A DNA stretch of 64,000 bases from Streptomyces uncialis. GTDB taxonomy: Bacteria; Actinomycetota; Actinomycetes; Streptomycetales; Streptomycetaceae. Position 1 is the first letter of the stretch. Each line of letters begins with the position of its first letter. The DNA lies in contig NZ_CP109583.1 of the NCBI RefSeq assembly GCF_036250755.1, positions 1,550,001 through 1,614,000 on the forward strand, in the 5' to 3' direction. A program made the position numbers and the translations under genes. Below are positions 45,226-62,275 of this stretch, one piece after another. A model generated the notes under the pieces. It was not told where the DNA came from. It worked only from the letters and a program-made list of their open reading frames with translations, and did not search any database.

Positions 45226-45807
45226 TCACAGCAGGCCGTCCTCCCGGTGGCGGATCTCGTCCGCCAGTTCCGCGGCCATGGCCTTGATGGTCTCCAGTCC
45301 GGGCCGTCCCCAGGGGCGGGGTTCGGTGTCCGCCACGCTCACGGTGCCGAGCGCGATCCCCGTCCGGTCGATGAGCGGGGCGCCCAGGTACGAGCGCACC
45401 CCGGTGTCGTCGACCACGGGGTTCCCGGCGAACCGGGGATAGTCGCGGACGTCCCCGAGGACGAGGGCCTTGCGCCGGACGACGACGTACGGGCAGAAGC
45501 CGCGGTCGCGCGACATCCGGCGGCCCGGGGCCGAGCCCTCCGGGCCGGGCGCGGCCCCGAGCGCCCGGGACGAGCGGCCGTCGGGGGTGTGCAGCCCGGA
45601 CAGGAACTGCTCGTGCTCGTCGATGAAGTTGACGAGCGCGAACGGGGCCCCGGTGACCTCGGCGAGCCGGTCCGCGAACCGGTCGAACACCGGGTCGGGC
45701 GCGCTGCCGAGGCCCAGCGCCCGCAGCCGCCGGGCCCGTTCGGGCGCCTCCCGGTCGACCGGGGTCATCAGGAAGGGCAGCGGCCGGACGGCCGGCTCGT
45801 ACCTCAT
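45226..45807 (-). CDS. GAF-domain protein, fifth gene of the conservon
   Basis: 193 residues with a GAF domain (FALVNFIDEHEQFLSGL, then DRGFCPYVVVRRKALVLGDV and SYLGAPLIDRTGIALGTVSVAD). ATG overlaps the cvnD stop by 4 bases (45804-45807), so it belongs to the conservon operon. Likely a small-molecule sensor feeding into the GTPase switch; ligand unknown. Confidence 0.88.
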   Translation of the reverse strand: MRYEPAVRPLPFLMTPVDREAPERARRLRALGLGSAPDPVFDRFADRLAEVTGAPFALVNFIDEHEQFLSGLHTPDGRSSRALGAAPGPEGSAPGRRMSRDRGFCPYVVVRRKALVLGDVRDYPRFAGNPVVDDTGVRSYLGAPLIDRTGIALGTVSVADTEPRPWGRPGLETIKAMAAELADEIRHREDGLL

Positions 45808-46403
45808 GTACGTGCCTCGTGCCCCGCCGGGTGCGCCGGGGCGTAGGCGATGAGGTGCTGGACGAGCGTGAGCAGGGTCTGGACCCCGGAGCTGGAGATC
45901 CGCGCGTCGCAGCGGACGACGGGCACCTCCGGGTCCAGGTCGATGGCCGCGCGGACCTCGTCGGGGTCGTAGCGGTGGGAGCCGTCGAACTCGTTGACGG
46001 CGAGGATGAAGGCCATCCCCCGCTGTTCGAAGAAGTCGACGGCGGGGAAGCACTCCTCCAGCCTGCGGGTGTCCGCGAGGATCACCGCGCCGAGCGCGCC
46101 TTCGGAGAGTTCGTCCCACATGAACCAGAAGCGTTCCTGGCCGGGGGTGCCGAACAGGTACAGGACGTGTTCCGCGTCCAGGGTGATCCGGCCGAAGTCC
46201 ATGGCCACGGTCGTCTGGGTCTTGTTCTCGACCCCCTCCAGGCTGTCGGTCGCCGCGCTGACCGTGGTGAGGAGTTCCTCGGTGCTCAGCGGCGCGATCT
46301 CGCTGACGGCACCCACGAAGGTCGTCTTGCCGACCCCGAAGCCTCCCGCGACCAGGATCTTGAGCGCTGTCGGGAAGGGGTCAGAGCTGTCGTCGTAGTC
46401 CAT
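45804..46403 (-). CDS. cvnD: Conservon GTP-binding protein CvnD
   Basis: 199 residues, Ras-like GTPase: Walker A VAGGFGVGKTTFVGAVSE, switch II-like LFGTPGQERFWFMWDEL and the base-recognition VNEFDGSHRYD where NKxD is VNEFDG. Starts inside the cvnC stop. GTP-driven switch of the conservon. Confidence 0.95.
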   Translation of the reverse strand: MDYDDSSDPFPTALKILVAGGFGVGKTTFVGAVSEIAPLSTEELLTTVSAATDSLEGVENKTQTTVAMDFGRITLDAEHVLYLFGTPGQERFWFMWDELSEGALGAVILADTRRLEECFPAVDFFEQRGMAFILAVNEFDGSHRYDPDEVRAAIDLDPEVPVVRCDARISSSGVQTLLTLVQHLIAYAPAHPAGHEART

Positions 46404-46758
46404 CGAGCACTGCCTCCAGAAGGGACCGGTCCGTGGGGTTGTGGAAGAGGGCGGGCGGTTTCATGGTGAGCGCCCCGCAGTCGACCAGGTCGGAGAGCAG
46501 CACCTTGGTCACGGCCACGGGCAGCCGGAGCTGGGCCGCGGCCTCCGCCACGGAGACGGGGCCCGCGCACAGGGCGAGTGCCTGGGCGTGTTCGGGGCCG
46601 AGGTAGCCGAAGGGGGTGGCGCCGGTGCTCATCACCTGCGACATCAGGTCCAGCGCCGTCGTGGGACGGGTGCGGCCGTTGCTCACCGTGTAGGGGCGGA
46701 CCAGGCGGCCCGCCGCCTCGTCGAGCCATGGACCGTCCTTCGGCGCGACCACGCTCAC
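46381..46758 (-). CDS. cvnC: Conservon protein CvnC (DUF742)
   Basis: 125 residues with the DUF742 pattern RPYTVSNGRTRPTTALDLMSQVMSTG and SVAEAAAQLRLPVAVTKVLLSDLVD, a winged-helix-like fold. Overlaps cvnB by 4 and cvnD by 23 bases. Confidence 0.95.
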   Translation of the reverse strand: MSVVAPKDGPWLDEAAGRLVRPYTVSNGRTRPTTALDLMSQVMSTGATPFGYLGPEHAQALALCAGPVSVAEAAAQLRLPVAVTKVLLSDLVDCGALTMKPPALFHNPTDRSLLEAVLDGLRRQL

Positions 46759-47195
46759 GGCCTCATCGCCGGGGAGTCGACGCGGACGGAGGACAGCCGG
46801 GGGGCGGTCGCCAGATAGGGCCGGACGCTCTTGACCAGCATCGCCATCTCGTAGCCGAGGACGGCGGCGTCCGCCTCCCGACCGGCGAGGACCGCGAGGC
46901 AGGTGCCTGATCCGGCGGTGGACACGAACAGCAGGGTGGCGTCGAGTTCGACGACCACCTGCCGTACGTCCCCGCCGTCGCCGAAGCGGGCACCGGCGCT
47001 GCGGCCGAGGGAGTAGAGCCCGGACGCCAGCGCGGCCATGTGGTCGGCGCCGTCCGGGTCGAGGCCGTGCACCGACTTGACCAGACCGTCGGAGGACAGC
47101 AGGACCGCGCTGCGGGTGTGGGGCACACGCTGGACCAGACCGCTCATCAGCCAGTCGAGATCGGATGCCTGGCCGGTGTGCGCGTCGCTCGCCAT
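46755..47195 (-). CDS. cvnB: Conservon roadblock/LC7 protein CvnB
   Basis: 146 residues: roadblock/LC7 domain with LDWLMSGLVQRVPHTRSAVLLSSDGLVKSVHGLD, implicated as GTPase-activating partner for CvnD. ATG at 47195. Second gene of the operon. Confidence 0.95.
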   Translation of the reverse strand: MASDAHTGQASDLDWLMSGLVQRVPHTRSAVLLSSDGLVKSVHGLDPDGADHMAALASGLYSLGRSAGARFGDGGDVRQVVVELDATLLFVSTAGSGTCLAVLAGREADAAVLGYEMAMLVKSVRPYLATAPRLSSVRVDSPAMRP

Positions 47196-47356
47196 GGTGG
47201 ATGGACTCCTTGGGGGTGCGGGGAAGGCGGAACGGGGTGGGGGCGGCTCGTGCGAGGGGCGGGCGGGGCCGTGGGCGGAGACCCGGGCGGGTCCGGCCCG
47301 GGCGGGCGGGTCCTGGGACGGGGGTGGGGGTCCCGGGCGGACCCGGGCGGCCGGGG

Positions 47357-50088
47357 TCAGCCGCCGGGCGCGGGGTCGTGACGGGCGGCGAGGTCGTGGA
47401 CGGGCGGGTCGTGGGGGTGGCGGCCGGGGGTGCGGGCGCCGGGGAGCGTGCCGGGGGCGGCGGTGAACGTGCCTGTGGCGAAGTCGCTCACGGTGAGGTC
47501 GTGGATGGGGGTCCGGGTGACGGCGGGCAGCTCATGGGCGGGCACGTCGAGTGCGGTACGGGGGCGGGAGCCGACGGCGGATGCCGTGGGGGCGGACCCG
47601 TCGTGGCGCCGCGGGCCGGGCCGGGTGGGCTCGGCGGGGAGGGTGTGCGGGGCGGGGAGCGGATGCGGGGCCGGGAGGCTGTGCGGCGCGGCGGATGTGC
47701 CGGGTGACGCGCCGGGAGCGACGGCGGCCGTGGGGGGCCGGTCCTGGTGCCGGGTGGACTGCTGGGCCTCGGCGAGACCGACGCCGCGCTGGAAGGCGGC
47801 CATCAGCCCCGGGTCGTGGTCGGCAGGTTGTTCGGCGTCGGGGCGCCGGGGGCCGGGCGCTTCGCGGAGCTGGGGCGCGAGGTGCTGTTGCGCGCGCCGT
47901 TTGGGGAGGTCGGGGCGGTCCTCCGTACCGCGTGCGGCGCTGCGGGGGGCCAGGCGGGCGGTGGGGCGCTCCTCGACGAAGCCCCCGGCGCCCTCGCCGC
48001 CCTGAACGCCCGCGACGCCTTGGACGCCCTCGACGGACGGCTCGCCCTGGCCGAGGCCAACGCCGACACCGAGGCCAACGCCGACGCCAACTCCGGCTCC
48101 GGCTCCGGCTCCGGCTCCCAGGGCGGCGGCGGTACCGAAGGCCGCGGGGACCGGGCCGCCCGTTCCGGTGCGGTGGTCGGCGGGGGGTGCCGCGTGGGCC
48201 GGGCGGGGGCGGAGGTTGTCGCCGGGATACGCGGCACGGTCGGCGCGGACGTGTCCGGAGGGGGACGCGGTGGGATCGGGGCGGGGGACTTCGGGGGCGG
48301 GGGCGCGGTCGGGGCGGACGGCTACGGGACCGGTCGGTGCGCGGTCGGGCCGGAAGCCCTCGGGGACATACGTCGCGCGGTCCGGGTCGACGTCCCCGGG
48401 AGTGTGCGCGGCTCCGCCGGGACGGGGCCCCGGGACGGCTTCGGCGGGGCCCGGCCGTACGGCGCGGGTGTCGCGGACCGGGAGGGGCGCGGGGCGGCCC
48501 GATCCGTGCGGGCGGGGCGGCGGGGCGGTGAAGGCGTCGGCCGCCGGGGTGCCCGGATGGGTGACGGTGTGTCCCGCCGCCTGAGGGCCGTCGGGGGCGG
48601 GGGGCTCTCGGCGCCGGCAGCGGCGTCACCGTGGCGCAAGGGCCGGTCGCCGCCGCCCGGGTCGGCGGCGGGGAGGGAACGCGGCCCGGCCTGCGCGGGC
48701 CGGGGCACGCGTACGGCCGCGTCACCGCCTCCGGGCCGGGGCACGCGTACGGCCGCGTCACCGGCGGGCCGCGGGGCGGTCACGGCGCGGTGCTGCCCGG
48801 CCGGTGCGGCGGGTCCGCCGGAGGTGGTCCGCAGGGTCGGGGGGTTCTCGCCGCCGGGGCGGGTGCGGGACCCGGGGTCGTCGTCGGAGCCGAGGAGTTC
48901 CTGGGGCAGGACCAGTACGGCCTGCACGCCTCCGTAGATATTGCTCTGGAGACGGACCGCGATCCCGTGCCGGTGGGCGAGCTGGGAGACGACGAGCAGC
49001 CCGATCCGGCCGTCCTGGAGCAGGCTCGCCACATTGACCTGGTCGGGCGCGGCGAGCAGGGCGTTCATCCGTGTCTGTTCGGACGGCGGCATCCCGAGGC
49101 CCCGGTCCTCCACCTCGACGGCGACCCCGGAGGTCACCGGCGCGACCCGGAGCAGGACCTGGGTGTGCGGGGCGGAGAACACCGTGGCGTTCTCGACGAG
49201 TTCGGCCATGAGGTGGACGACATCGGCGACGGCGTGGCCGCGGACGGTGCCCTCGATCGGGGGGACGAGCCGCACCCGGGAGTACTGCTCGACCTCGGCG
49301 ATCGCGGAACGCAGCACCTCGTGCAGGGACACGGGGGTGCTCCACTGGCGCCGGGACACAGCGCCGCCGAGGACGGCGAGGTTCTCGGCGTGGCGGCGGA
49401 TACGGGTGGCGAGGTGGTCGACGTGGAACAGGCCCTTGAGGAGTTCGGGGTCCTCGACCTCGTTCTCCAGTTCGTCGAGGATCGAGATCTCGCGGTGCAC
49501 CAGGGACTGAAGGCGGCGGGCCAGGTTGACGAAGACCTCCACCTTCTGTTCGCTGCCCGCCCGGCCGGACAACTGCGCGGCCCGGTGGACGGCCTGCACG
49601 GACGCGTCCTGGGTGTGCGCCAGTTCCCGGGCGAGCCGGTCGAACTCGTCGCCGTCCGCCATGCCGCGTGGCGCGGCGGTGCGCGTGGGCGGGGTCTCAC
49701 CGCGGCGCAGGGCCTCGACCAGTGAAAGGATCTCGGCGCGGTTGCGGGCGCTGGCGCGGCGCAGCGAACCGAGCCGGTCGCCGAGGGCGGCGGCGGCGCG
49801 GTCGGCGGCGATCGCGGCGATGACGAGTCCGGTGACGGTGACCGCGACGGCTCCGGCCAGCACGGCCCACAGCGTCGGCCCGGCGGGCACGGCGGACGCC
49901 CGTACGGTGAACAGCACGGCGGCGGTGGCGCTGAGGGCCACGGCGACGGCGGGGAGCACCGCGATCCGCAGCAGTTGCGCGCGTATGTGCGACTCGGGCA
50001 GCGGGCGGGCGGGGCCGCCGGCGGGTCTGCCGTGCCGTCCGCCCTCACGGCGGTCTGCGCGTACGGCCGGTGCGCGAAGGTGTGACAT
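47357..50088 (-). CDS. cvnA: Conservon sensor kinase-like CvnA, with one apparent frameshift
   Basis: The first gene of the conservon. Frame one (50088 to ~48605): two membrane helices near 45-105, a HAMP-like region, DHLATRIRRHAENLAVLGG dimerisation part, and a HATPase (HLMAELVENATVFS, EVEDRGLGMP, GRIGLLVVSQLA). Near 48602 the frame is lost in a G6 run; the next frame carries the conserved tail PKRRAQQHLAPQLREAP and MAAFQRGVG to the stop at 47357. Adding one G restores ~910 residues. A real null or phase variant, or a sequence error. Confidence 0.85.
48698..48764. repeat. ~30-bp direct repeat inside cvnA linker
   Basis: Two near-identical ~30-bp copies (core ggccggggcacgcgtacggc) 36 bp apart, translated as GDAAVRVPRP twice in the Pro-rich linker. 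Confidence 0.8.
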
Positions 50089-50347
50089 CAGCGTCCTTGA
50101 GGTGTCCGTCTGGGCTGCCGTGCGCGTGGCGGAGCGCGGTCGCCGGTTCCGTTCGGATCGGGCCGGGTCGCACGCTCCGGCAAGTGACCCGGCGACCACA
50201 CACCGTAGTCGGCAAGTCGGGCCACGCGTCGCATGGTTCGTGAAGTCCGGCGGACAACGTCCCGCTCTGGTATGAGGCTTCGCATGGCCGTCCGAAATCG
50301 GATGTGGACGGATGTTCGGGTGCGGGGTGCCGGGGCCGGGCGCGCCG

Positions 50348-51628
50348 TCAGTCGCCGGGCCTGCCGCACAGGTCCTCCAGGGCGAACGCGTCCGCCTGGA
50401 TCTGCAACCGGCGTTCGGCGTCGAGCTGTCCCAGCAGACGGTCCAGCAGCTCGGTGTCCTGCGGCGCCGTGAGGAACTCCAGCACGGCGCGCTGGAAGGC
50501 GCCCCGGAGGGTGGACGGCATCGCGTCCGAGGCGTCGAAGCACAGTTCGTCCGCCTCGCGGAACAGTCGCAGGACCGCCTTGGTGCCGGGGGTGAGCGGG
50601 TCCGGCCCCGCCGTGCCGTCGGAGAAGAAGGGACGCTCCACGGGCAGGGCCGCGGCGGCCCATTCGTCGCGCGTCCTGCGGTCGATGAACTGTCTCAGCA
50701 GCTCCCAGGCGGCGTCGCTCGGGGTGAAGACGGCCGCCATGTCACCGGACACCTCGTGAAGCTTGCGGTGGTCCGGCAGTCCGGGGACGACATCCGGCGT
50801 GGGGGCGGGCATGACGTCGTCCCCGTAGTGGCGGCGGATGAACGAACCCTGGTGCTCCAGCGCGCAGTCACCCCGGTTGAGCAGGCCCCACCGCCCGTCG
50901 CCCAGGCTCTCGAAGGGGGTGAAGACCGCCTTCGGGCCCGCCTTCGGACCGGCCGCCACCAGCAGCTCGCGCCACTCCTGCCACGCCCGCTTCACCTTCG
51001 TGTCGGTCCAGGCCAGTTCGCCGGTGGCCCAGTCGGTGTACACATCGGGGCCCTGCCGCTGGAGCAGCAGGTCCTCGATCCAGTCCGTGCCCGGCCAGCC
51101 GGAGGTGGCGCCCGACGCCATACCGAGACACCAGCGGGCCGGACCGGTGGCCTGCTCCCCGCCGTCACGGCGCCACACGATGCTCTTCAGATCCACCCGG
51201 ACCGGCACCCAGTACGTGTGCTGCCGCTGCTCACCGTCCTTGTTCCGTACGGTGATCCGGGGGCCCCACGGTCCGAACGACGCCGACGCGAGACCGTCGG
51301 GCAGCGGGTGCGCGTCGCCGTCACGGGCGTACTCGGCGAGCTCGCCCTGGCCGTTGAGGATCGCGACATCGGGGGGTGAGTCCGTGCGCAGCTGCGCCAC
51401 CAGCGTCTCGCGCAGCGAGCGGGTGCCCTCGTAGACGTAGCGGACCCCGGTCCGTTCGGTGATCTTCGCGAGCATCGCGACGAAGGACCGTTCCTCGCCG
51501 TCCGTCCAGGGGCCGAGGACGACCAGGGTCGGCTCCTCCCGGTCGGCGCAGCCCGCCGTGCCGAGCACCGGCCCGGCGAACAGACAGCCCGCCAGGACGG
51601 CGCGGAGCAGGGCGCGTACGGTCCTCAT
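50348..51628 (-). CDS. Solute-binding lipoprotein, sensor partner of the PknG-like module
   Basis: 426 residues. Signal peptide MRTVRALLRAVLAGCLFAG ends in a lipobox-like GTAGC, then an extracytoplasmic binding-protein fold (VVLGPWTDGEERSFVAMLAKITE, RTDSPPDVAILNGQGELAEY, GDDVMPAPTPDVVPGL). No ABC permease or ATPase genes adjoin. Its start overlaps the membrane-protein stop (51625-51628). It plausibly presents a ligand to the membrane sensor, as GlnH does beside PknG (inference). Confidence 0.85.
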   Translation of the reverse strand: MRTVRALLRAVLAGCLFAGPVLGTAGCADREEPTLVVLGPWTDGEERSFVAMLAKITERTGVRYVYEGTRSLRETLVAQLRTDSPPDVAILNGQGELAEYARDGDAHPLPDGLASASFGPWGPRITVRNKDGEQRQHTYWVPVRVDLKSIVWRRDGGEQATGPARWCLGMASGATSGWPGTDWIEDLLLQRQGPDVYTDWATGELAWTDTKVKRAWQEWRELLVAAGPKAGPKAVFTPFESLGDGRWGLLNRGDCALEHQGSFIRRHYGDDVMPAPTPDVVPGLPDHRKLHEVSGDMAAVFTPSDAAWELLRQFIDRRTRDEWAAAALPVERPFFSDGTAGPDPLTPGTKAVLRLFREADELCFDASDAMPSTLRGAFQRAVLEFLTAPQDTELLDRLLGQLDAERRLQIQADAFALEDLCGRPGD

Positions 51629-53235
51629 GCGGTGCGCCAATGGATCTCCAGATGTCTGCGGTTGTAGTGGAAGAGCGTGAAGCCGCAGGCGAGGGTGCCG
51701 GCCGTGCCGAGGGCCAGCGCGAGGACGGCCATCAGGGTCCGTTCCTGGGGGTGGGTGTGCCGCAGATGCGCGGCGAGCCGTGTCCCCTCGTCCTCGATCG
51801 CGGCGCCGGTACGGGTCTCGCGTTCGATCTCCTCGCCGATGCCCCCGCCGGCGACCCGCTCGACCTCGATCGCCGCGAGCCGGTCGACGGTGCGCCCGAC
51901 ATACGCCTGGGCGGTGTGCTGCCCGGCCGCGCCGAACGCCAGCACGACCAGGACCAGGAGGACGGGTGTCGCGAGCAGGGTCAGCACGACACCGCGCACC
52001 CGGAGCCTGCGATGGACGAAGTCCAGGGTGCCGACGAGCAGGAACACGAGGAACAGCGCCGCCAGGACGGCCGCCGACGCCGCCCCCGCCGCCGGTCCGC
52101 CCCATCCCGAAAGTTCCCGGGCGTCGGCGCGCAGTTCCGCCTCCAGGGTCCGGATGCGGTCGAGCACGGCGGTGGAGTCCGGGGCGCCCCGTCCGTCGCC
52201 CAGCAGGCCCGCCGCGGTCTCCAGTCCGGCCCGGCGCAGCCCGGTGTTGCTGTGGTGACGGCTGTTGGCCCAGTTGATGAAGTCGTCGTAGGCGACGACG
52301 AGCCCCGACACCACCCGGACCTCCTGCTCCTGCGAGCGGTGCAGGGCGCCGGTCAGCGCGGCGTTGTTGAGGCTCTGGGACGCCTCGGTGATCAGGGACG
52401 GATAGCGCTCCCCGAGGCCGACGAGGTCGGTCTGGGGCAGCGGCTCGCCGTCGTTCGCCGCGAGCCGCCGTTCGGCCTCGGCCCTGGCGAGGGTCAGCGA
52501 GACACGTGCGTGGGTCAGTTCGACGAGGGCGGGGGCGTAGCGCTCGCGGAGCTGTTCCGTCCGGTCGTGCAGGGTGAAGTACGAGGTGGCCGCCAGGCCG
52601 AGGACGGTGAGCGCGACGGCGGGCAGCAGCAGCATCCGGGTGAGCAGGAACCGGCGGGTGGACGTGGACACCGAGACGGTCGTGGCCCTTGAGCCGGTTC
52701 TCGGGGCGGGCGCCGGGTCGGGTGACGGGCGACGCCCCGACGACCACCACCACAGGGCCTGCCCGGTCGGCCTTCGCGGGGCGGTGGGTCCGGTCGCGGG
52801 CACGGCGGCACGCGGGGCGGGCGCGGCTACGGGCGACTCGGGCACGGGGTCGTTCGGCGGGGGGTCGTTCGGCGCGGGGTCGGGGGCCGTTCGGTGGCCG
52901 GTGGCCGGTCCGGGTCCGGGGGCCTCGGGTGCGGGGTCGGGGGTCGGTTCGGGTCCGGGGGCCGGTCCCGCGTCGGCGGCGGCTCCGGGCGTCCGCTCCC
53001 CGGGGTCGGCCTGCGAGGGCACCGTCCTCGTGTCCCGTGGCCGCGTGCCGGACCGCTGCGTGCCGCCCGTTCGCGGGCCGGGCGGGGCCGGGTCCTCGAC
53101 GGCCGGGGCCTGCTGCTCCGCTCCGTCAGGTATACCGTCCCCGGGCGTCGCCGTCGTCGGGGGCGCCTGCCCGGCGGCCGGGGGCCGGGGGTCCGGGGCG
53201 GTGGGCGGATGGCCCGGGTCGGTCGTGCCGCTCAT
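51625..53235 (-). CDS. Membrane sensor protein, GlnX-like position
   Basis: 536 residues. A ~190-residue Pro/Gly-rich cytoplasmic N-terminus, helix ~200-222 (LLPAVALTVLGLAATSYF), an extracytoplasmic helical region (~225-385), a helix at ~388-412, further helices near 415-440, and a last one near 505-530 ending in HYNRRHLEIHW. Overlaps both neighbours by 4 bases. Placement between lipoprotein and kinase recalls mycobacterial glnX, but the sequence relation was not tested. Confidence 0.8.
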   Translation of the reverse strand: MSGTTDPGHPPTAPDPRPPAAGQAPPTTATPGDGIPDGAEQQAPAVEDPAPPGPRTGGTQRSGTRPRDTRTVPSQADPGERTPGAAADAGPAPGPEPTPDPAPEAPGPGPATGHRTAPDPAPNDPPPNDPVPESPVAAPAPRAAVPATGPTAPRRPTGQALWWWSSGRRPSPDPAPAPRTGSRATTVSVSTSTRRFLLTRMLLLPAVALTVLGLAATSYFTLHDRTEQLRERYAPALVELTHARVSLTLARAEAERRLAANDGEPLPQTDLVGLGERYPSLITEASQSLNNAALTGALHRSQEQEVRVVSGLVVAYDDFINWANSRHHSNTGLRRAGLETAAGLLGDGRGAPDSTAVLDRIRTLEAELRADARELSGWGGPAAGAASAAVLAALFLVFLLVGTLDFVHRRLRVRGVVLTLLATPVLLVLVVLAFGAAGQHTAQAYVGRTVDRLAAIEVERVAGGGIGEEIERETRTGAAIEDEGTRLAAHLRHTHPQERTLMAVLALALGTAGTLACGFTLFHYNRRHLEIHWRTA

Positions 53236-56200
53236 CGGCGCTCCTCCTCCGCGGGGGTGGGTTGCGTCGTGGCCGGGCCCCGTGTCCAGGGGCGCAGGAG
53301 CCGGTGGCGCGGCTCGCCCCGGTTGTGGGTGAGACCGACGGGCCGGGTGAGGTACGCGTTGTCCACCAGGGCCCCGGCCAGCTCTCGGTAGGCGTCCCGC
53401 GGTGCGGGGGGCACCTGTTCGGCGAGCCTCAGATAGCAGGCCGCCAGTTCCTCGTGCAGATCGCGCACGGTACGGGGCAGCCGGGCGGCCTCGGGGGCGC
53501 CCGCCAGCTCCTGGTGGAGGGCCTGGAGGGGATCGGGCTGCGGCGCCCGTGCCCCGCCCGGCCGGACCCGCACACGGGCGCGTTGCCCGGTGCCGTCCTC
53601 CGCGGGGTCCAGCCGCAGCAGGAGTTCCAGGAGATCGGCGCGCAGCCGTTCCTGCGCGTGCCGGTCGGTGAGGCCCTCCCTCAGGGTCAGCCGGTGCATG
53701 GCCACCCAGGCCCGCGCGGCGGCCTGCGGGGTCGGCCGGGCGTCACCGTCGGGCGGGTCCGCGAGGATGCGCACCATGGCGGTCCGCGCGGCGGTGCGGT
53801 GCCGGGAGTCGGCCGGGACGGCTTCCAGGCAGTCGAGGGCGAGCTGCGGCTTGCCGTGCCCGACATGGATACGGGCCAGCCCGAAGGCGGCGCCGCCGAG
53901 CGCGCGGTTGCGCTGCCACACCGCCCCGTACAGCCGGACGGCTTCCTTCGGGTTGTCCCCGAACTCCTGGCAGTAGCCCATCGCCAGCTTCGGGGCGTAC
54001 TCGCCGGGTATGGCGGCGTTGACCCGGGTGAAGCACTCCAGTGCGGGGGTCACCTCGCCCCGGGAGAGCCACAGCAGTCCGTGGTGCCAGTCGAGCCGCC
54101 AGTCGTGGGCGGCCGGTTCGCCGACGGCCGTCGCCGCCAGGGCCAGCTCCCGTTCGGCACGCCGGAGTTCACGGGCGGCCTCCGCCGGGTGGTCACGGGC
54201 GATCTCCAGATGGAGACGGCAGCGCAGCAGGGCGCGTTCGGGCGACTCCCGCCACACCTCGCTGAGCTGGAGCAGTCCGGCCGGATCGTCGTACGACGTG
54301 CGTTGCAGCTCCGTCCGGTTCCGGTCGGAGTCGTCCGGCCGGGGTACGGGCAGCCCCAGGGCGACCTCGGGCGGGGTCGGCCGGGTGGACGACAGCTTCC
54401 GCTTGCGGTTGCCGCCCTGCCGCCACTGGTCGAGCGGCGGCGCCTTGCCGAGCGCGCCGTCGAGGGCGGCGGGCGCGGTGGCGAAGAGCGGGGACGGCTC
54501 GAACGTCTCCGCGCCGAGCCGCAGTGAACGCAGTTCCCGCAGCACCCCGCGCAGTTGGACCGACATCTCCTCCGCGGAGGCGAACCGCGCGGCGGGCAGC
54601 GGCGCCATGGCGCGCGTCAGCACCCCGCGCAGCGAGGTCGCGCCGAGGCCGGCGGGGTCCTCGGGGGCCCGGTCCAGCAGCTTCTCCAGCAGCTTGCCGA
54701 CGGCGTACAGTTCGGCCGCGACCGTCACCCGGGTGGACAGGCCCGTCTCGGGTGCCCGGTAGGTCACCGGGCCCGGGTCGCCGATCTTCCGTACCCCGGC
54801 GACATCGATCAGCTTGATGCCTTCGCCGCAGTGGATGACGTTGGTCAGGGAGAGGTCGCCGTAGACGAACTCCCGCTCCACATGGAGATAGGTGAGCGCG
54901 TCCAGGATGCGCAGCCCGTACGCGGCGATGAACTCGTGCACCCGGTAGTCGTGGAACGGCGCGACACGGCGTCCGATCTGGTCGGCGACCCAGGCGAGAG
55001 GGGCGCCGTTGGCGAACTCCATCACGATGAACCTGGCGTTGCTGTCCGGGTCCGGATGTCTGGCGTAGTTGAACACCTTGATGATCGCGGGATGGTTGAG
55101 GCTGACCAGCCGCACGCGTTCCGTGGAAGCGGTCTTCTCGGCGTCCGGGTCGGCGGGGTCACGGACCCCCTTGAGGGCGACGGCCCGGTCCTCCAGCATC
55201 CGGTCGTGGGCGAGGTACACCTCGCCGTAGGTGCCCTGGCCGAGTCTGCCGATCACCAGGTACTGCTGATGCAGTTCCTGCCCCCGGGACAGCCCGGGGC
55301 CTGCCGCGCCGTCGCCGGGCTCCCCCGGTTCGGACTCCACGAGGCGGTCCGGACGCCCGACGACGACGTTCGGGAGGTCGGTGAGTCCGTCCGTCGGAGG
55401 CTTCACCACGTACCGCCGTGACGGGTACGGCAGGCGCAGCGCCTGGACGGCGTCCTCGACCTCGGTGCGCAGCCGGAACAGCTCGTACACCACGTCCTCG
55501 GTGTTGCTCAGGACGCCGCCCCGCCGCAAAGCGTCGAGCCTCGCCCGCAGCCGTACCGACACGGGGTCGGGGCCGTCGGGCGCCGGGGCGGGAACCTCCG
55601 GTACGGGATCGGCGCCGCGCGGCGGGGGAGGTTCAGGGCTCTGCGGCGCGGGGTCGGCGCTGTCCGGCGCGGGCGGGGCCGTGGCGGTGCGCCGGACGTG
55701 GCGGACCCGCCGTTCCAGTCCGCCGAGGGCGTTCAGCCTGGCCGCGATGGCGTCCGCGTGCCGCTGGGCCCACCCGGGGTCGAGCAGCTCACGCACCACG
55801 CGCGCCAGCAGCGGGGAGGTGCGTTCACGCAGGACGAGCAGGACACGGCTGTGACCGGGCTCCAGCAGCGCGTGCAGCAGGGGCAGGACCGCGTCCGGCC
55901 GGTGGGCGGCCCGGTCGGCGGACAGGAAGGCGGCGGACAGCGGCGGGCCCTCCTCGGCGATACGCGCGAGGAGGCGGTCGGTACGGGTGGACGGGCGGTC
56001 GCTGTCCAGCGGCCGGTCGGCTCCGGGCGGTCCGTCGGCGTTCGGCGGTCCGTCGGGGGGTGGGCGGTCGCCGTCCGCGTCGGGTGCGCTGTCGGCGTCG
56101 GGTGCGCGGCCCGTCGTGGGTACGGGTACGGGGTCGGGGTCGGAGGCGGTCGGTTCGAGGTCGTCCAGGCCGGCGCGGGCGGCGGTGCGGTCGACGAGTT

Positions 56201-57350
56201 CCGCGGCCGTCCAGCCCTTCGCGTCCAGGGCGATGTCGATGGACCCCGCGCGGGGCTCCACCGGCCCGCCCGGGTCCGCCGGGTCCGGGTAGCGCTCACG
56301 GTCGGCCCGGACGAGCGTAGAACGGACGGCGGCCCAGGCGTCCGGTTCGTCGTCGTGGACGAACGCCAGTTCCACCGGCTCGGCCGCTGCGCCGGCCTCC
56401 CTGACCGGCCGGCCGGACGCCGACGCGCTTCCCTCGGTCGCGCTCCCCCAGGTCAGCGTCGTCCCCTGATGCGTGCCACCGCCATGGCCGGAACCGACGA
56501 CGGTCCCGCCCGCGCCGAGCCACCGGGTCATGAGGTACCGCAGCCCCAGGGCCCGTTCCTGGGCGCCCGGCGGGGTGGCGTCGGCCCGGATCCCACGGGA
56601 GACGGCTCGGGGCCCCAGGACCTTCAGCCCGTGCTCGCCGGGGCGCAGATGCCGGAGGATGGTCTCGGTCGGGATCATGTACGCGTGGCTCAGCGGGACG
56701 GGCACCCGCTCCGTACCGTGCTGGTGCACCAGGATGCCGATGACCCGGCCGGTACGGCTGTGGACCACACCGCTTCCGCTGAAGCCGTGCCGGATCACAT
56801 AGGGGGACGACTCGGGGTCGAGCTGTACCCACTCGGGGTAGAGGCCGGGACCGCCACGGCCCATGATCCGGGCGTTGACGTACTCCCCGCCGATGAGGTA
56901 GTCGGGATAGCCGACGGCGTGCACCTGTTCGTTGCGGGCGGGGATCTGCCGGTGCAGCACGGCGGGCGTCACCCGCAACGGCTCCGCGCCGGGCACCCGT
57001 TCCAGCTTCAGCAGGGCGAGGTCGGCGCTGTAGCCCGGGGTGGGCGGCCTCAGATGCTGGAGGAGGACCCGGGCCGGCAGCCGTCCGGGCGCACCGGAGG
57101 CGGTGGGGAACTCCGCCACCACCCGTTCCAGCGACTCGTACCCGGCGGGTTCCGGGTCGTCGTCCCGGTCGTCGTGTGCCGCCGGAAGGCGCGGCAGCAG
57201 CACCACATGGGCGCAGGTGAGCACATGGCCCCCGGCCAGGAGTACGCCCGCTCCCAGCGGCGGGCTCCCAGGAGCATCCTCCTGGAACAGTCGTACCCGC
57301 CAACCACCTTCGTGTACAGCGGAGTTGGAAGTACCCTCGGGCTCCCTCAT
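53232..57350 (-). CDS. Trypsin-like protease / PknG-like kinase / TPR fusion protein
   Basis: 1372 residues. Residues ~15-230 are a trypsin-like domain with triad His48 (VLTCAHVV), Asp110 (YSADLALLKL) and Ser191 (HGFSGSGV). A variable Asp/Pro-rich middle part (~250-600) follows. The kinase (~697-940) has GRLGQGTYGEVY, Lys727 (VALKGV), catalytic Asp832 in YGDLSLTN (the usual DLKPEN Lys is Ser834) and DVAG at 849. The C-terminal ~400 residues are TPR-like. The layout matches PknG with its rubredoxin replaced by a protease. Start ATG at 57350; no signal peptide. Confidence 0.88.
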   Translation of the reverse strand: MREPEGTSNSAVHEGGWRVRLFQEDAPGSPPLGAGVLLAGGHVLTCAHVVLLPRLPAAHDDRDDDPEPAGYESLERVVAEFPTASGAPGRLPARVLLQHLRPPTPGYSADLALLKLERVPGAEPLRVTPAVLHRQIPARNEQVHAVGYPDYLIGGEYVNARIMGRGGPGLYPEWVQLDPESSPYVIRHGFSGSGVVHSRTGRVIGILVHQHGTERVPVPLSHAYMIPTETILRHLRPGEHGLKVLGPRAVSRGIRADATPPGAQERALGLRYLMTRWLGAGGTVVGSGHGGGTHQGTTLTWGSATEGSASASGRPVREAGAAAEPVELAFVHDDEPDAWAAVRSTLVRADRERYPDPADPGGPVEPRAGSIDIALDAKGWTAAELVDRTAARAGLDDLEPTASDPDPVPVPTTGRAPDADSAPDADGDRPPPDGPPNADGPPGADRPLDSDRPSTRTDRLLARIAEEGPPLSAAFLSADRAAHRPDAVLPLLHALLEPGHSRVLLVLRERTSPLLARVVRELLDPGWAQRHADAIAARLNALGGLERRVRHVRRTATAPPAPDSADPAPQSPEPPPPRGADPVPEVPAPAPDGPDPVSVRLRARLDALRRGGVLSNTEDVVYELFRLRTEVEDAVQALRLPYPSRRYVVKPPTDGLTDLPNVVVGRPDRLVESEPGEPGDGAAGPGLSRGQELHQQYLVIGRLGQGTYGEVYLAHDRMLEDRAVALKGVRDPADPDAEKTASTERVRLVSLNHPAIIKVFNYARHPDPDSNARFIVMEFANGAPLAWVADQIGRRVAPFHDYRVHEFIAAYGLRILDALTYLHVEREFVYGDLSLTNVIHCGEGIKLIDVAGVRKIGDPGPVTYRAPETGLSTRVTVAAELYAVGKLLEKLLDRAPEDPAGLGATSLRGVLTRAMAPLPAARFASAEEMSVQLRGVLRELRSLRLGAETFEPSPLFATAPAALDGALGKAPPLDQWRQGGNRKRKLSSTRPTPPEVALGLPVPRPDDSDRNRTELQRTSYDDPAGLLQLSEVWRESPERALLRCRLHLEIARDHPAEAARELRRAERELALAATAVGEPAAHDWRLDWHHGLLWLSRGEVTPALECFTRVNAAIPGEYAPKLAMGYCQEFGDNPKEAVRLYGAVWQRNRALGGAAFGLARIHVGHGKPQLALDCLEAVPADSRHRTAARTAMVRILADPPDGDARPTPQAAARAWVAMHRLTLREGLTDRHAQERLRADLLELLLRLDPAEDGTGQRARVRVRPGGARAPQPDPLQALHQELAGAPEAARLPRTVRDLHEELAACYLRLAEQVPPAPRDAYRELAGALVDNAYLTRPVGLTHNRGEPRHRLLRPWTRGPATTQPTPAEEERR

Positions 57351-57411
57351 GCTCCATGACAATAGCCAGGAGGGGGGCATTCCACCCCCGTCCCACCAAA
57401 GGAGGACCCTG
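57351..57411. promoter_or_regulatory. Shared divergent control region of the protease-kinase and Trypco2-like genes
   Basis: 61 bp serving both starts. On the minus strand TATTGT lies 8 bases before the protease-kinase ATG, allowing a nearly leaderless start. The plus strand holds the Trypco2-like ribosome site. Confidence 0.4.
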
Positions 57412-57747
57412 ATGGGGCGAATTGGCGGCCGGGGCGAGTCCGACGGCGCGGAGACGGCCGGGCTCGCGGAGGTGATCGGGAAGATCCGTGACGAGCTCGA
57501 ACAGGCGCAGCACGAGGGTTCCCGGAGCAGGCTCCGGTTCCTGGTGGAACGCGTCAACGTCGAGTTCGCGGTGCAGGTCCGCCGGGAGGGCAGCGGGCGG
57601 GGCGGGCTGAGCATCGGTGTGGTCACGGCGGAGGCGGGGGCGGCGGCCTCGCACGAGACCACCCACCGGATCGAGATCGAGCTGAAGCCGCATGACCGGG
57701 ATGACCCGGGAGGGCCGGGGATCAGCGTGGGTGGCCCCCGCAGGTAG
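57412..57747 (+). CDS. Trypsin-co-occurring (Trypco2-like) small protein
   Basis: 111 residues: an N-terminal amphipathic helix (LAEVIGKIRDELEQAQ), a strand pair SRLRFLVERVNVEFAVQVRR, then GGLSIGVVTAEAG and THRIEIELKPH, the pattern of trypsin-co-occurring domain 2. AAGGAGGA ribosome site. Divergent from the protease-kinase, 61 bp between starts, so a shared control region. Likely binding partner or target of the protease. Confidence 0.8.
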   Translation: MGRIGGRGESDGAETAGLAEVIGKIRDELEQAQHEGSRSRLRFLVERVNVEFAVQVRREGSGRGGLSIGVVTAEAGAAASHETTHRIEIELKPHDRDDPGGPGISVGGPRR

Positions 57748-61066: not shown

Positions 61067-62275
61067 ATGCTCAACGCCCTCGCCCCGGACAAGCTCCCGA
61101 CCGCGCCCCTGATATCCCTGACCTGGACCGACCATGTCACCGGCAGCCGCGGCCACCTCGTCGTGGACCGGCTGGTGCGCGGCGTGGCGAGCGGCGGGGT
61201 GCGGATGCGGGAGGGCTGCACGCTGGAGGAGGTCGCCGGGCTGGCGCGCGGGATGACGATGAAGGAGGCCCTGCACTACGACCCCAAGGCGCGGTACGTC
61301 CCGCTGGGCGGCGCCAAGGGCGGGATCGACTGCGACCCCCGGCATCCGGACGCGTACGGCGTGCTCGTGCGGTACCTGCGCGCGATGCGCCCCTACCTCG
61401 AGAGCTGCTGGGCGACCGGCGAGGACCTGGGCCTGACCCAGGACACCGTCGAGCGGGCCGCGGCCGAGGCGGGGCTCACCTCGACGGTGCAGGCCGTGTA
61501 CCCGCTGCTGGACGACGAGGAGGCGGCCCGCGCGCGGCTCACCGACGCGTTCGCCTGCGAGGTGGACGGCATCGGCCTGGACGAGCTGGCCGGGGGCTGC
61601 GGGGTGGCCGAGGCGGTCCTGTCCGCGCTGGACGACGCGCGGATGCCGTACGAGGGCACCCGGGTCGCCCTCCAGGGGCTCGGGACCATGGGCGGGGCGA
61701 CGGCCCGGTTCCTGTCCCAGGCGGGCCTCACGGTCGTCGCGGTGGCGGATGTGCGGGGCACCATCGTCAATCCGGCCGGTCTCGACGTCGAGGCGCTGCT
61801 CGGGGCCCGCGACAGCTTCGGGACCGTCGACCGCGCGGTGCTGCGCGAGGGCGACCGGGAGATGCCGGGCGACGCGTGGCTCGCCGTGGACACCGATGTC
61901 CTCGTCCCCGCCGCGCTCTCGTACGTCATCGACTGCACCAACCAGCACCGGGTGACGGCACGGTGGATCGTGGAGGCCGCCAACATGCCCGTCCTCCCGG
62001 CGGCGGAGTCCCTGCTGACGACGCGCGGGATCGCCGTGATGCCCGATGTCGTCGTCAACTCCGCGACGAACGCCTGGTGGTGGTGGACGCTCTTCGGCGA
62101 CATCGGGGCGGACCCCGACGAGGCGTTCGCGCACATCCGCGGCTCCATGCGGGATCTGATCGCCCGGGTGCTGGCCCGTGCGGAGGCGGACGGCACCGCG
62201 CCCCGTGCCGCCGCCCACGCGCTGGTCGCGGATCTCGTCCCGGAGATCACGGAACGCTTCGGCACCTACCGCTGA
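61067..62275 (+). CDS. Glu/Leu/Phe/Val dehydrogenase family enzyme
   Basis: 402 residues. LVRGVASGGVRMREGCTLEEV, GMTMKEALHYDPKARYVPLGGAKGGIDCDP (catalytic Lys), a GEDLG Asp and ALQGLGTMGGATARFL Rossmann turn mark the family. Interconverts an amino acid and a 2-oxo acid with NAD(P). Distinct from the valine-dehydrogenase-like gene at 24 kb. Own promoter upstream; a TetR gene follows on the same strand. Confidence 0.9.
   Translation: MLNALAPDKLPTAPLISLTWTDHVTGSRGHLVVDRLVRGVASGGVRMREGCTLEEVAGLARGMTMKEALHYDPKARYVPLGGAKGGIDCDPRHPDAYGVLVRYLRAMRPYLESCWATGEDLGLTQDTVERAAAEAGLTSTVQAVYPLLDDEEAARARLTDAFACEVDGIGLDELAGGCGVAEAVLSALDDARMPYEGTRVALQGLGTMGGATARFLSQAGLTVVAVADVRGTIVNPAGLDVEALLGARDSFGTVDRAVLREGDREMPGDAWLAVDTDVLVPAALSYVIDCTNQHRVTARWIVEAANMPVLPAAESLLTTRGIAVMPDVVVNSATNAWWWWTLFGDIGADPDEAFAHIRGSMRDLIARVLARAEADGTAPRAAAHALVADLVPEITERFGTYR

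Follow-up and report, generated by a model that had tools for sequence, protein, structure and literature searches.

The window, that is, the whole 64,000-nucleotide stretch of Streptomyces uncialis DNA analysed here, carries on its minus strand three genes, each overlapping its neighbour by 4 bases. The first, K (53232..57350), encodes a fused protein of 1372 aa; the second, X (51625..53235), overlaps K by 4 nt and encodes a GlnX-like membrane protein of 536 aa; the third, S (50348..51628), overlaps X by 4 nt and encodes a solute-binding lipoprotein (SBP) of 426 aa from the SBP_bac_1 family. On the plus strand, divergent from K, lies the gene for a Trypco2 protein of 111 aa (57412..57747), with an RBS-like GGAGG upstream; the intergenic region (57351..57411, no strand) separates the two start codons by 61 bp. 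An initial annotation had proposed this overlapping set of a protease-kinase-TPR protein, a membrane protein and an SBP lipoprotein, and our analysis confirmed it as real. Chance fusion of ORFs was ruled out as the origin of K, since 15 loci of our genome scan have it as a single open frame and the fused kinases form a 100/100 clade. A DNA-level plasmid search with the locus returned a single match, covering 1 percent.

Domains of the fused protein and its partners

K is composed of five recognisable parts: (i) an HtrA-fold trypsin domain (about 15-245) with the triad His48, Asp110 and Ser191; (ii) a middle alpha/beta domain (about 326-557); (iii) the PknG N-terminal motif DGLTDLP (about 654-660); (iv) a kinase domain without Rdx (about 690-945), with K727, E744, D832, S834 at the Lys position, N837 and D849-V-A; and (v) a PknG-type TPR (about 988-1213+), matched by PF16918 at 109.1 bits (cut-off 27). 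The Pfam search found no rubredoxin (PF16919) in K, whose N-terminal motif and kinase follow each other without one, as in C. glutamicum PknG; passages of PMC8546545 describe this domain as missing in corynebacteria also. The proposal that a protease had replaced the rubredoxin of PknG therefore holds only for the absence of the latter: the trypsin, a separate neighbouring gene in split relatives, was added upstream, and the N-terminal motif and kinase were both retained.

The protease domain, whose predicted model is HtrA-like, shares its fold and its Ser-His-Asp triad with the HtrA/Deg proteases (DegS, HtrA1, MamO), and differs from them in having no PDZ domain by Pfam, in being probably cytoplasmic and in being joined to a kinase/TPR module. 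The sole membrane-helix-like window in a hydropathy scan of K lies over the trypsin core; since the scan gives no other membrane helix, the output of K is probably cytoplasmic. The triad is complete in 23/23 aligned proteins, fused and split, and in 66 of the 69 fused proteins among the matches listed, the lowest identities being about 45 percent among the fused and 31 percent with the split proteins. In the other three, P0030 (labelled partial by its source) and P0040 have lost the whole triad with the kinase residues still present, while P0054 merely has a gap at His48. This constancy, together with the predicted fold, suggests that selection acts on a working protease, and the trypsin-type N-terminal domain first read from the sequence, with exactly these three residues, stands.

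The middle domain is harder to place. Pfam matches occur in 1 or 2 of 43 members only and are weak (AAA_22, 0.014; NPHP3_N, 0.054; AAA_16, 0.38), with none in K's own piece. K has no Walker A pattern, and no P-loop was found at the first strand of the domain; among split-type proteins the pattern gives hits in 8/58, which in all 7 inspected lie on another motif. The domain of K may be a decayed STAND core, a tentative reading that draws partly on the order of its motifs; the reference pattern picked out no STAND protein in this genome. A middle-part model derived from split proteins found no match in L006 (a near-copy of the window), L009 or L014, one made from the canonical 430-aa protein found none in K, L089 or L090, and the PDB matches of profile A5 were dominated by its trypsin rows.

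The kinase/TPR part of K matches Mycobacterium tuberculosis PknG (E 3.5e-50 over 513 residues). In the kinase tree, a 100/100 branch places K together with 14 canonical PknG rows and separates this PknG group from 33 other kinase rows, of which two are identical; clustering elsewhere had been named beforehand as refuting, and both the kinship with PknG and the TPR tail are borne out. The tree thins the kinase-alone rows to 14, every second one being dropped, shows L090 as a long branch, and omits rows with fewer than 180 domain residues (cut loci), the second piece of the frameshifted L061, L006 and loci L128-L143. It supports a single origin of the fusion (100/100). In all 16 fused kinase rows, one of them a near-copy of the window, the catalytic-loop Lys is replaced by Ser and the DFG Gly by Ala (Ser834 and Ala851 in K), whereas 55/55 unfused rows compared retain both. 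The missing Lys of the loop DLSLTN, already remarked on in the initial annotation, is thus specific to the fused form among these rows. The VAIK Lys, alphaC Glu, catalytic Asp, Asn and DFG Asp are present in 70/70; the 69 homologs, drawn from a candidate list whose scoring covered the 7990 entries with the most shared words, include one unfused rubredoxin PknG (P0072). These patterns point to fused kinases that would still bind nucleotide and whose catalysis would be changed.

Four membrane helices are predicted in X, whose N-terminal tail is long and rich in Pro. The hydropathy layout of X is similar to that of GlnX, for which passages of PMC9769921 describe four membrane helices and two outer domains in C. 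glutamicum, and a profile comparison of the two gave a probability of 94.9 (E 4e-8, 179 columns). On these grounds X is a GlnX relative, as first thought, despite a weak score with the family model NF058618 (20.6 bits, E 2e-4, under the cut-off of 250), with which the canonical GlnX of the same genome scores 505 bits. S was correctly read as a solute-binding lipoprotein; it is of the SBP_bac_1 family, whereas the GlnH of this genome is SBP_bac_3 (amino-acid type). In the PDB, S matched AcbH weakly (E 0.009), across merely 60 residues.

Fused, split and protease-free sets

A separate, canonical glnX-glnH-pknG operon is present elsewhere in the genome. The set in the window is therefore a paralog, and we rejected the idea that it is this organism's PknG operon. 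Across the 90 loci compared, the set takes three forms: kinase-X-SBP; a split form, Trypco2|trypsin-kinase-vWA-X-SBP; and the fused form, in which trypsin and kinase are a single protein of single origin. Trypsin is borne by 33 loci and absent from 57, and kinase, X and SBP co-occur at system loci in either case, with the following exceptions: in L012 and L020 the contig ends before the SBP, L015 has no X match, in L090, L133-L135 and L142 the membrane protein is unmatched by the X model, and L136 has neither SBP type. Gene starts at these loci come from a simple in-house caller rather than annotation, the thresholds are our own, and the models were seeded from the same sets, so seed-locus scores are high by construction.

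The split sets contain a vWA gene, recognised by Pfam in two and also by model matches, and this gene has a homolog in the vWA gene of the canonical pknG operon; no vWA match was found in 17 fused loci, the window among them. The fused form occurs in 9/199 Streptomyces genomes. The same scan, tuned to the fused type, gave 18 weaker matches that undercount split sets, G013 (split set L090) being unmatched there. The tree, together with the flanking genes that loci share, is consistent with split sets having lost trypsin repeatedly, at least twice, although these events could also be gains, and the split state may have come first.

Trypco2 follows the trypsin. The gene beside K is the only match to PF19631 found in this genome (89.1 bits, cut-off 24.2), and lying 61 bp from K it bears out the divergent Trypco2-like partner first proposed. 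Trypco2 adjoins 23 of the 33 loci that bear trypsin, always on the opposite strand (23/23), and was not found at the remaining 10; at the loci without trypsin it was found at 0/57, but in four of these (L052, L057-L059) the sequence stops short upstream, in the place expected for Trypco2, and its absence there is uninformative. The loci are related and four are repeats (L006 of the window, L128 of L050, L129 of L044 and L131 of L055); without these the counts are 22/32 and 0/54. Chance was ruled out as the cause of the adjacency.

A candidate route from outside ligand to inside protease

We put at about even the chance that K, X and S make up a second, re-purposed PknG sensory system, in which a ligand outside the cell gates an intracellular protease. 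The family-1 SBP lipoprotein would bind the ligand outside the cell and alter the state of X, and X would in turn engage the TPR domain of K, in the way suggested for GlnX and PknG. K would no longer chiefly phosphorylate GarA/OdhI, its kinase module perhaps being mainly allosteric now: this nucleotide-binding module would relay the change via the middle domain to the trypsin domain of the same chain, which would cut a cytoplasmic target, or K itself. Trypco2 is probably a dedicated partner of the trypsin part, as a restraint or a co-factor. A narrower version, in which K is a ligand-gated protease with a pseudokinase as relay, the SBP signal opening the HtrA-type protease via X and Trypco2 restraining it, is put forward tentatively and may well be wrong.

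This arrangement shares with GlnH-GlnX-PknG nutrient sensing, as set out in passages of PMC6069109, PMC8546545 and PMC9769921 for Mycobacterium and Corynebacterium, a lipoprotein SBP, a four-helix membrane relay and a PknG-type kinase with TPR encoded together, and with C. glutamicum PknG the kinase without Rdx. In contrast, the window differs in SBP family, fused protease, catalytic loop, Trypco2 neighbour and gene order (kinase-X-SBP), and the canonical operon co-exists with it. SCO1468 and SGR_4432, Streptomyces Ser/Thr kinases linked to SBPs according to passages of PMC6069109, resemble K by description in that gene linkage, but those passages mention no protease with them. Some Streptomyces appear to carry a second, altered GlnH-GlnX-PknG copy with the sensor exchanged and the kinase joined to a protease, which suggests a route from an outside chemical signal to protein cutting inside the cell. 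If true, proteolysis under the control of an extracellular solute sensor, relayed by a PknG module, would be a signalling output of which we found no description in the literature searched. It would link the study of nutrient sensing by PknG with that of trypsin/Trypco2 modules in conflict systems, two fields so far separate, and the series of kinase alone, beside trypsin and fused, with the loop changing at fusion, offers a testable case of a kinase turning into an allosteric relay.

Kinases without the catalytic-loop Lys can be active, as in haspin and the aminoglycoside kinases, so K may still phosphorylate, and the lineage's core output may be phosphorylation, since protease-free kinase-X-SBP sets are common among the loci compared. 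It is conceivable, if rather unlikely, that K is an active kinase acting chiefly on its own protease part or on Trypco2 and thereby switching the protease on. The catalytic Asp, Asn, VAIK Lys and DFG Asp, kept in 70/70, fit this, as do unfused relatives that retain Lys and Gly and, when split, adjoin a separate trypsin gene, a possible substrate; yet Lys and Gly disappeared together with the fusion, as if phosphorylation in trans had become needless.

We consider it unlikely that trypsin, Trypco2, the STAND-like middle domain and the vWA of split relatives form a suicide or immunity switch resembling the VMAP ternary systems, with an outside or envelope signal as trigger. Passages of PMC7159879 and PMC10907252 describe trypsin/Trypco2 modules in VMAP and related conflict systems, and Trypco2 was first defined, according to the former, next to conflict-system trypsins; a Trypsin_2 domain with an adjoining Trypco2 gene is shared by the K locus and these systems. 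Of 188 matches to the split trypsin protein, the best 120 include, among the distant ones, P0171 (with EAD2, VMAP-M0 and VMAP-C), over the 30 percent of the query that is its trypsin part, and P0143 (with TIR), over 93 percent; the vWA gene of split sets and the patchy spread of the fused form also suit this reading. Against it, the K locus pairs its trypsin with a PknG kinase and an extracytoplasmic sensor, and the term 'solute-binding' is absent from the main text of PMC7159879; MoxR and VMAP domains were not found in the six window proteins scanned, nor was EAD in the proteins scanned; VMAP-C, MoxR ATPase and vWA were not found together, nor any VMAP domain in K, X, S or Trypco2; and PADLOC gave generic kinase and trypsin matches only for seven proteins scanned. 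Since the split-set vWA has its homolog in the canonical pknG operon, a conflict-system origin is not needed for it.

That the protease is a vestige, and the set simply another kinase or pseudokinase sensor, is quite improbable: the two proteins without a triad and the apparent trypsin losses, which may also be gains, speak for it, but the triad persists in nearly all fused proteins and in every aligned fused and split one. Least of all do we credit the original proposal of 2-oxoglutarate/glutamate flux controlled by GarA/OdhI phosphorylation, with proteolysis as a second output, which the kinship of K and X with PknG and GlnX and a GarA/OdhI-like FHA protein in the genome (186 bits, below the cut-off of 200, and not in the set) would suit, but which the SBP family, the canonical operon, the lack of any FHA or PP2C gene within the three-gene set and the lost Lys leave unsupported. 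PknG-like annotations in Streptomyces include systems with other sensors and, probably, with outputs other than GarA/OdhI.

Composition of the set and its kinship with the canonical operon

Three overlapping genes on the minus strand make up the set: K (53232-57350), a 1372-residue protein with matches to Pfam Trypsin_2, Pkinase and PknG_TPR; X (51625-53235), a membrane protein; and S (50348-51628), a solute-binding lipoprotein matching SBP_bac_1. The K/X and X/S overlaps are 4 nt each, and a divergent plus-strand gene (57412-57747), starting 61 bp from K, encodes a Trypco2 protein (PF19631). The arrangement and domains read from the sequence in the initial annotation are borne out. The view of X as a GlnX-like multi-helix protein also held: its match to the NCBIfam GlnX model is weak, but four membrane helices are predicted from hydropathy, as in canonical GlnX, and its alignment matches an alignment of 12 canonical GlnX proteins in a profile comparison (probability 94.9, E 4e-8, 179 columns). 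For GlnX of C. glutamicum, two outer domains and four membrane-spanning segments have been described (PMC9769921).

The S. uncialis genome also carries a canonical operon (L002, G000:C1:6246000-6262000), which exceeds glnX-glnH-pknG: besides glnX (GlnX model, 505 bits), glnH (SBP_bac_3) and a rubredoxin PknG, it encodes a helical protein of roughly 430 residues between glnH and pknG, and PP2C, vWA and FHA genes behind pknG. Matches to GlnX, GlnH, the 430-residue protein, the kinase and vWA recur at L079-L083 and L086-L088, PP2C and FHA having been looked at in L002 only. Genome-wide, PknG_TPR occurs twice and Trypco2 once. As for the suspected FHA substrate, a GarA/OdhI-like protein is present, at 186 bits slightly below the cut-off of 200.

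Beside the set, a HATPase-domain protein (48322-50199, minus strand) is followed by several small same-strand genes, a region (45804-50199) that we take to resemble a Streptomyces conservon, and an ORF at 61067-62275 (plus strand) resembles, by eye, a Glu/Leu-type amino-acid dehydrogenase.

Forms of the set and likely origin of the fusion

A scan of genome contigs gave 59 loci, 56 of them from Streptomyces, and further neighbourhoods were added from other genomes; the locus table holds 90 loci, the window counted, 33 with trypsin and 57 without. Three forms were found: (i) fused, in the window and 16 loci (L006-L019, L022, L130); (ii) split, at 16 loci (L020, L021, L023, L041, L045, L047, L060, L061, L089-L092, L132-L135), with separate trypsin and kinase genes, then vWA, membrane protein and SBP (L020 stops after the kinase); and (iii) kinase-X-SBP alone. 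Kinase, X-type and SBP genes recur in this gene-order survey with or without trypsin. The window-type SBP model matched at 31 of the 33 trypsin loci, the other two stopping at a contig end; canonical GlnH stands at 19 loci, none with trypsin. Among 199 Streptomyces genomes the fused form is present in 9 (trypsin-domain match of at least 56 percent identity, open frame of at least 1222 codons), and weaker trypsin-domain matches in 18 more include split-type proteins, which are undercounted.

The same flanking gene clusters, one inverted, enclose split L041, L047 and L061 and kinase-alone L024-L026, L043 and L046, from which we infer that trypsin and vWA genes were gained or lost in place. At L089 (4340-18639), a kinase and a vWA gene of canonical type are followed immediately by a divergent split set (trypsin, kinase, vWA, membrane protein, SBP) that has Trypco2, as tandem duplication would leave it; two further genes there sit where L002 has PP2C and FHA. 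In another family of the class (L142:7353-14159), kinase, vWA, a weakly GlnX-like protein and a window-type SBP occur without trypsin; the SBP may have been exchanged before the link to trypsin arose. A likely history is that the canonical operon was first duplicated and the SBP then replaced, after which trypsin joined the helical module, with Trypco2 alongside, and last came a single trypsin-kinase fusion with loss of the vWA gene.

The kinase part and the proposed signal path

The kinase falls with PknG, as initially proposed. Among PDB entries it is most similar to M. tuberculosis PknG (2PZI, E 3.5e-50, K residues 685-1197), followed by C. glutamicum PknG (7MXB, E 3e-47), where the aligned region takes in the N-terminal motif DGLTDLP. 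A 100/100 branch in a tree of 88 kinase domains separates the K family, together with 14 canonical PknG rows, from 33 other kinase rows (30 from S. uncialis loci, two of which gave identical sequences, and 3 from MAG loci). The 15 fused rows form a single clade (100/100).

The missing Lys of the DLSLTN loop, seen at the outset, characterizes the fused form among the rows examined: YGDLSLTN and DVA occur in 16/16 fused rows (one a near-copy of the window), whereas all 55 unfused rows covering the region retain the catalytic-loop Lys and DFG Gly. In a second alignment, Ser and Ala stand at these two sites in 69 of 70 rows, the exception being P0072, a rubredoxin PknG; all 70 retain the VAIK Lys, alphaC Glu, catalytic Asp, Asn and DFG Asp. 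The fused kinase lost Lys and Gly with the fusion and retains its nucleotide-binding residues, which suggests that it acts as a relay and not as a normal kinase.

For mycobacteria and corynebacteria, two papers propose signalling from GlnH through GlnX to the PknG TPR domain (PMC6069109; PMC8546545). By homology, the signal should pass from S through X to K, whose new output would be proteolysis. We did not find the system described in paper listings on PknG with GlnX/GlnH, Trypco, SCO1468/SGR_4432 or kinase-trypsin fusions, which is weak evidence of absence as subscription journals were mostly not covered.

At the N terminus, split kinases at L041:10746, L047:10776 and L060:10773 (kinase starts) have a zinc-ribbon-like Cys motif that other family kinases lack; the rubredoxin/zinc part may have been lost stepwise.

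Trypco2 and the trypsin association

Trypco2 accompanies trypsin at 23 of 33 loci (15/17 fused, 8/16 split) and is found at none of the 57 without it, four of which are cut upstream. Since it is linked to trypsin and, in the loci examined, never to the kinase alone, its distribution says that Trypco2 serves the protease. A conflict role for the system is possible, because Trypco2 got its name from neighbourhoods of this kind in VMAP conflict systems (PMC7159879; PMC10907252), and because the split trypsin protein has distant matches in VMAP and TIR proteins. The 2020 eLife paper (PMC7159879) does not mention PknG in its main text.

A motif, GSIDLAVDASGKT, follows trypsin in P0143, P0147, P0152 and P0155, proteins only distantly related to the K system, three of which have a listed TIR domain; the region is apparently a trypsin-linked domain without a name.
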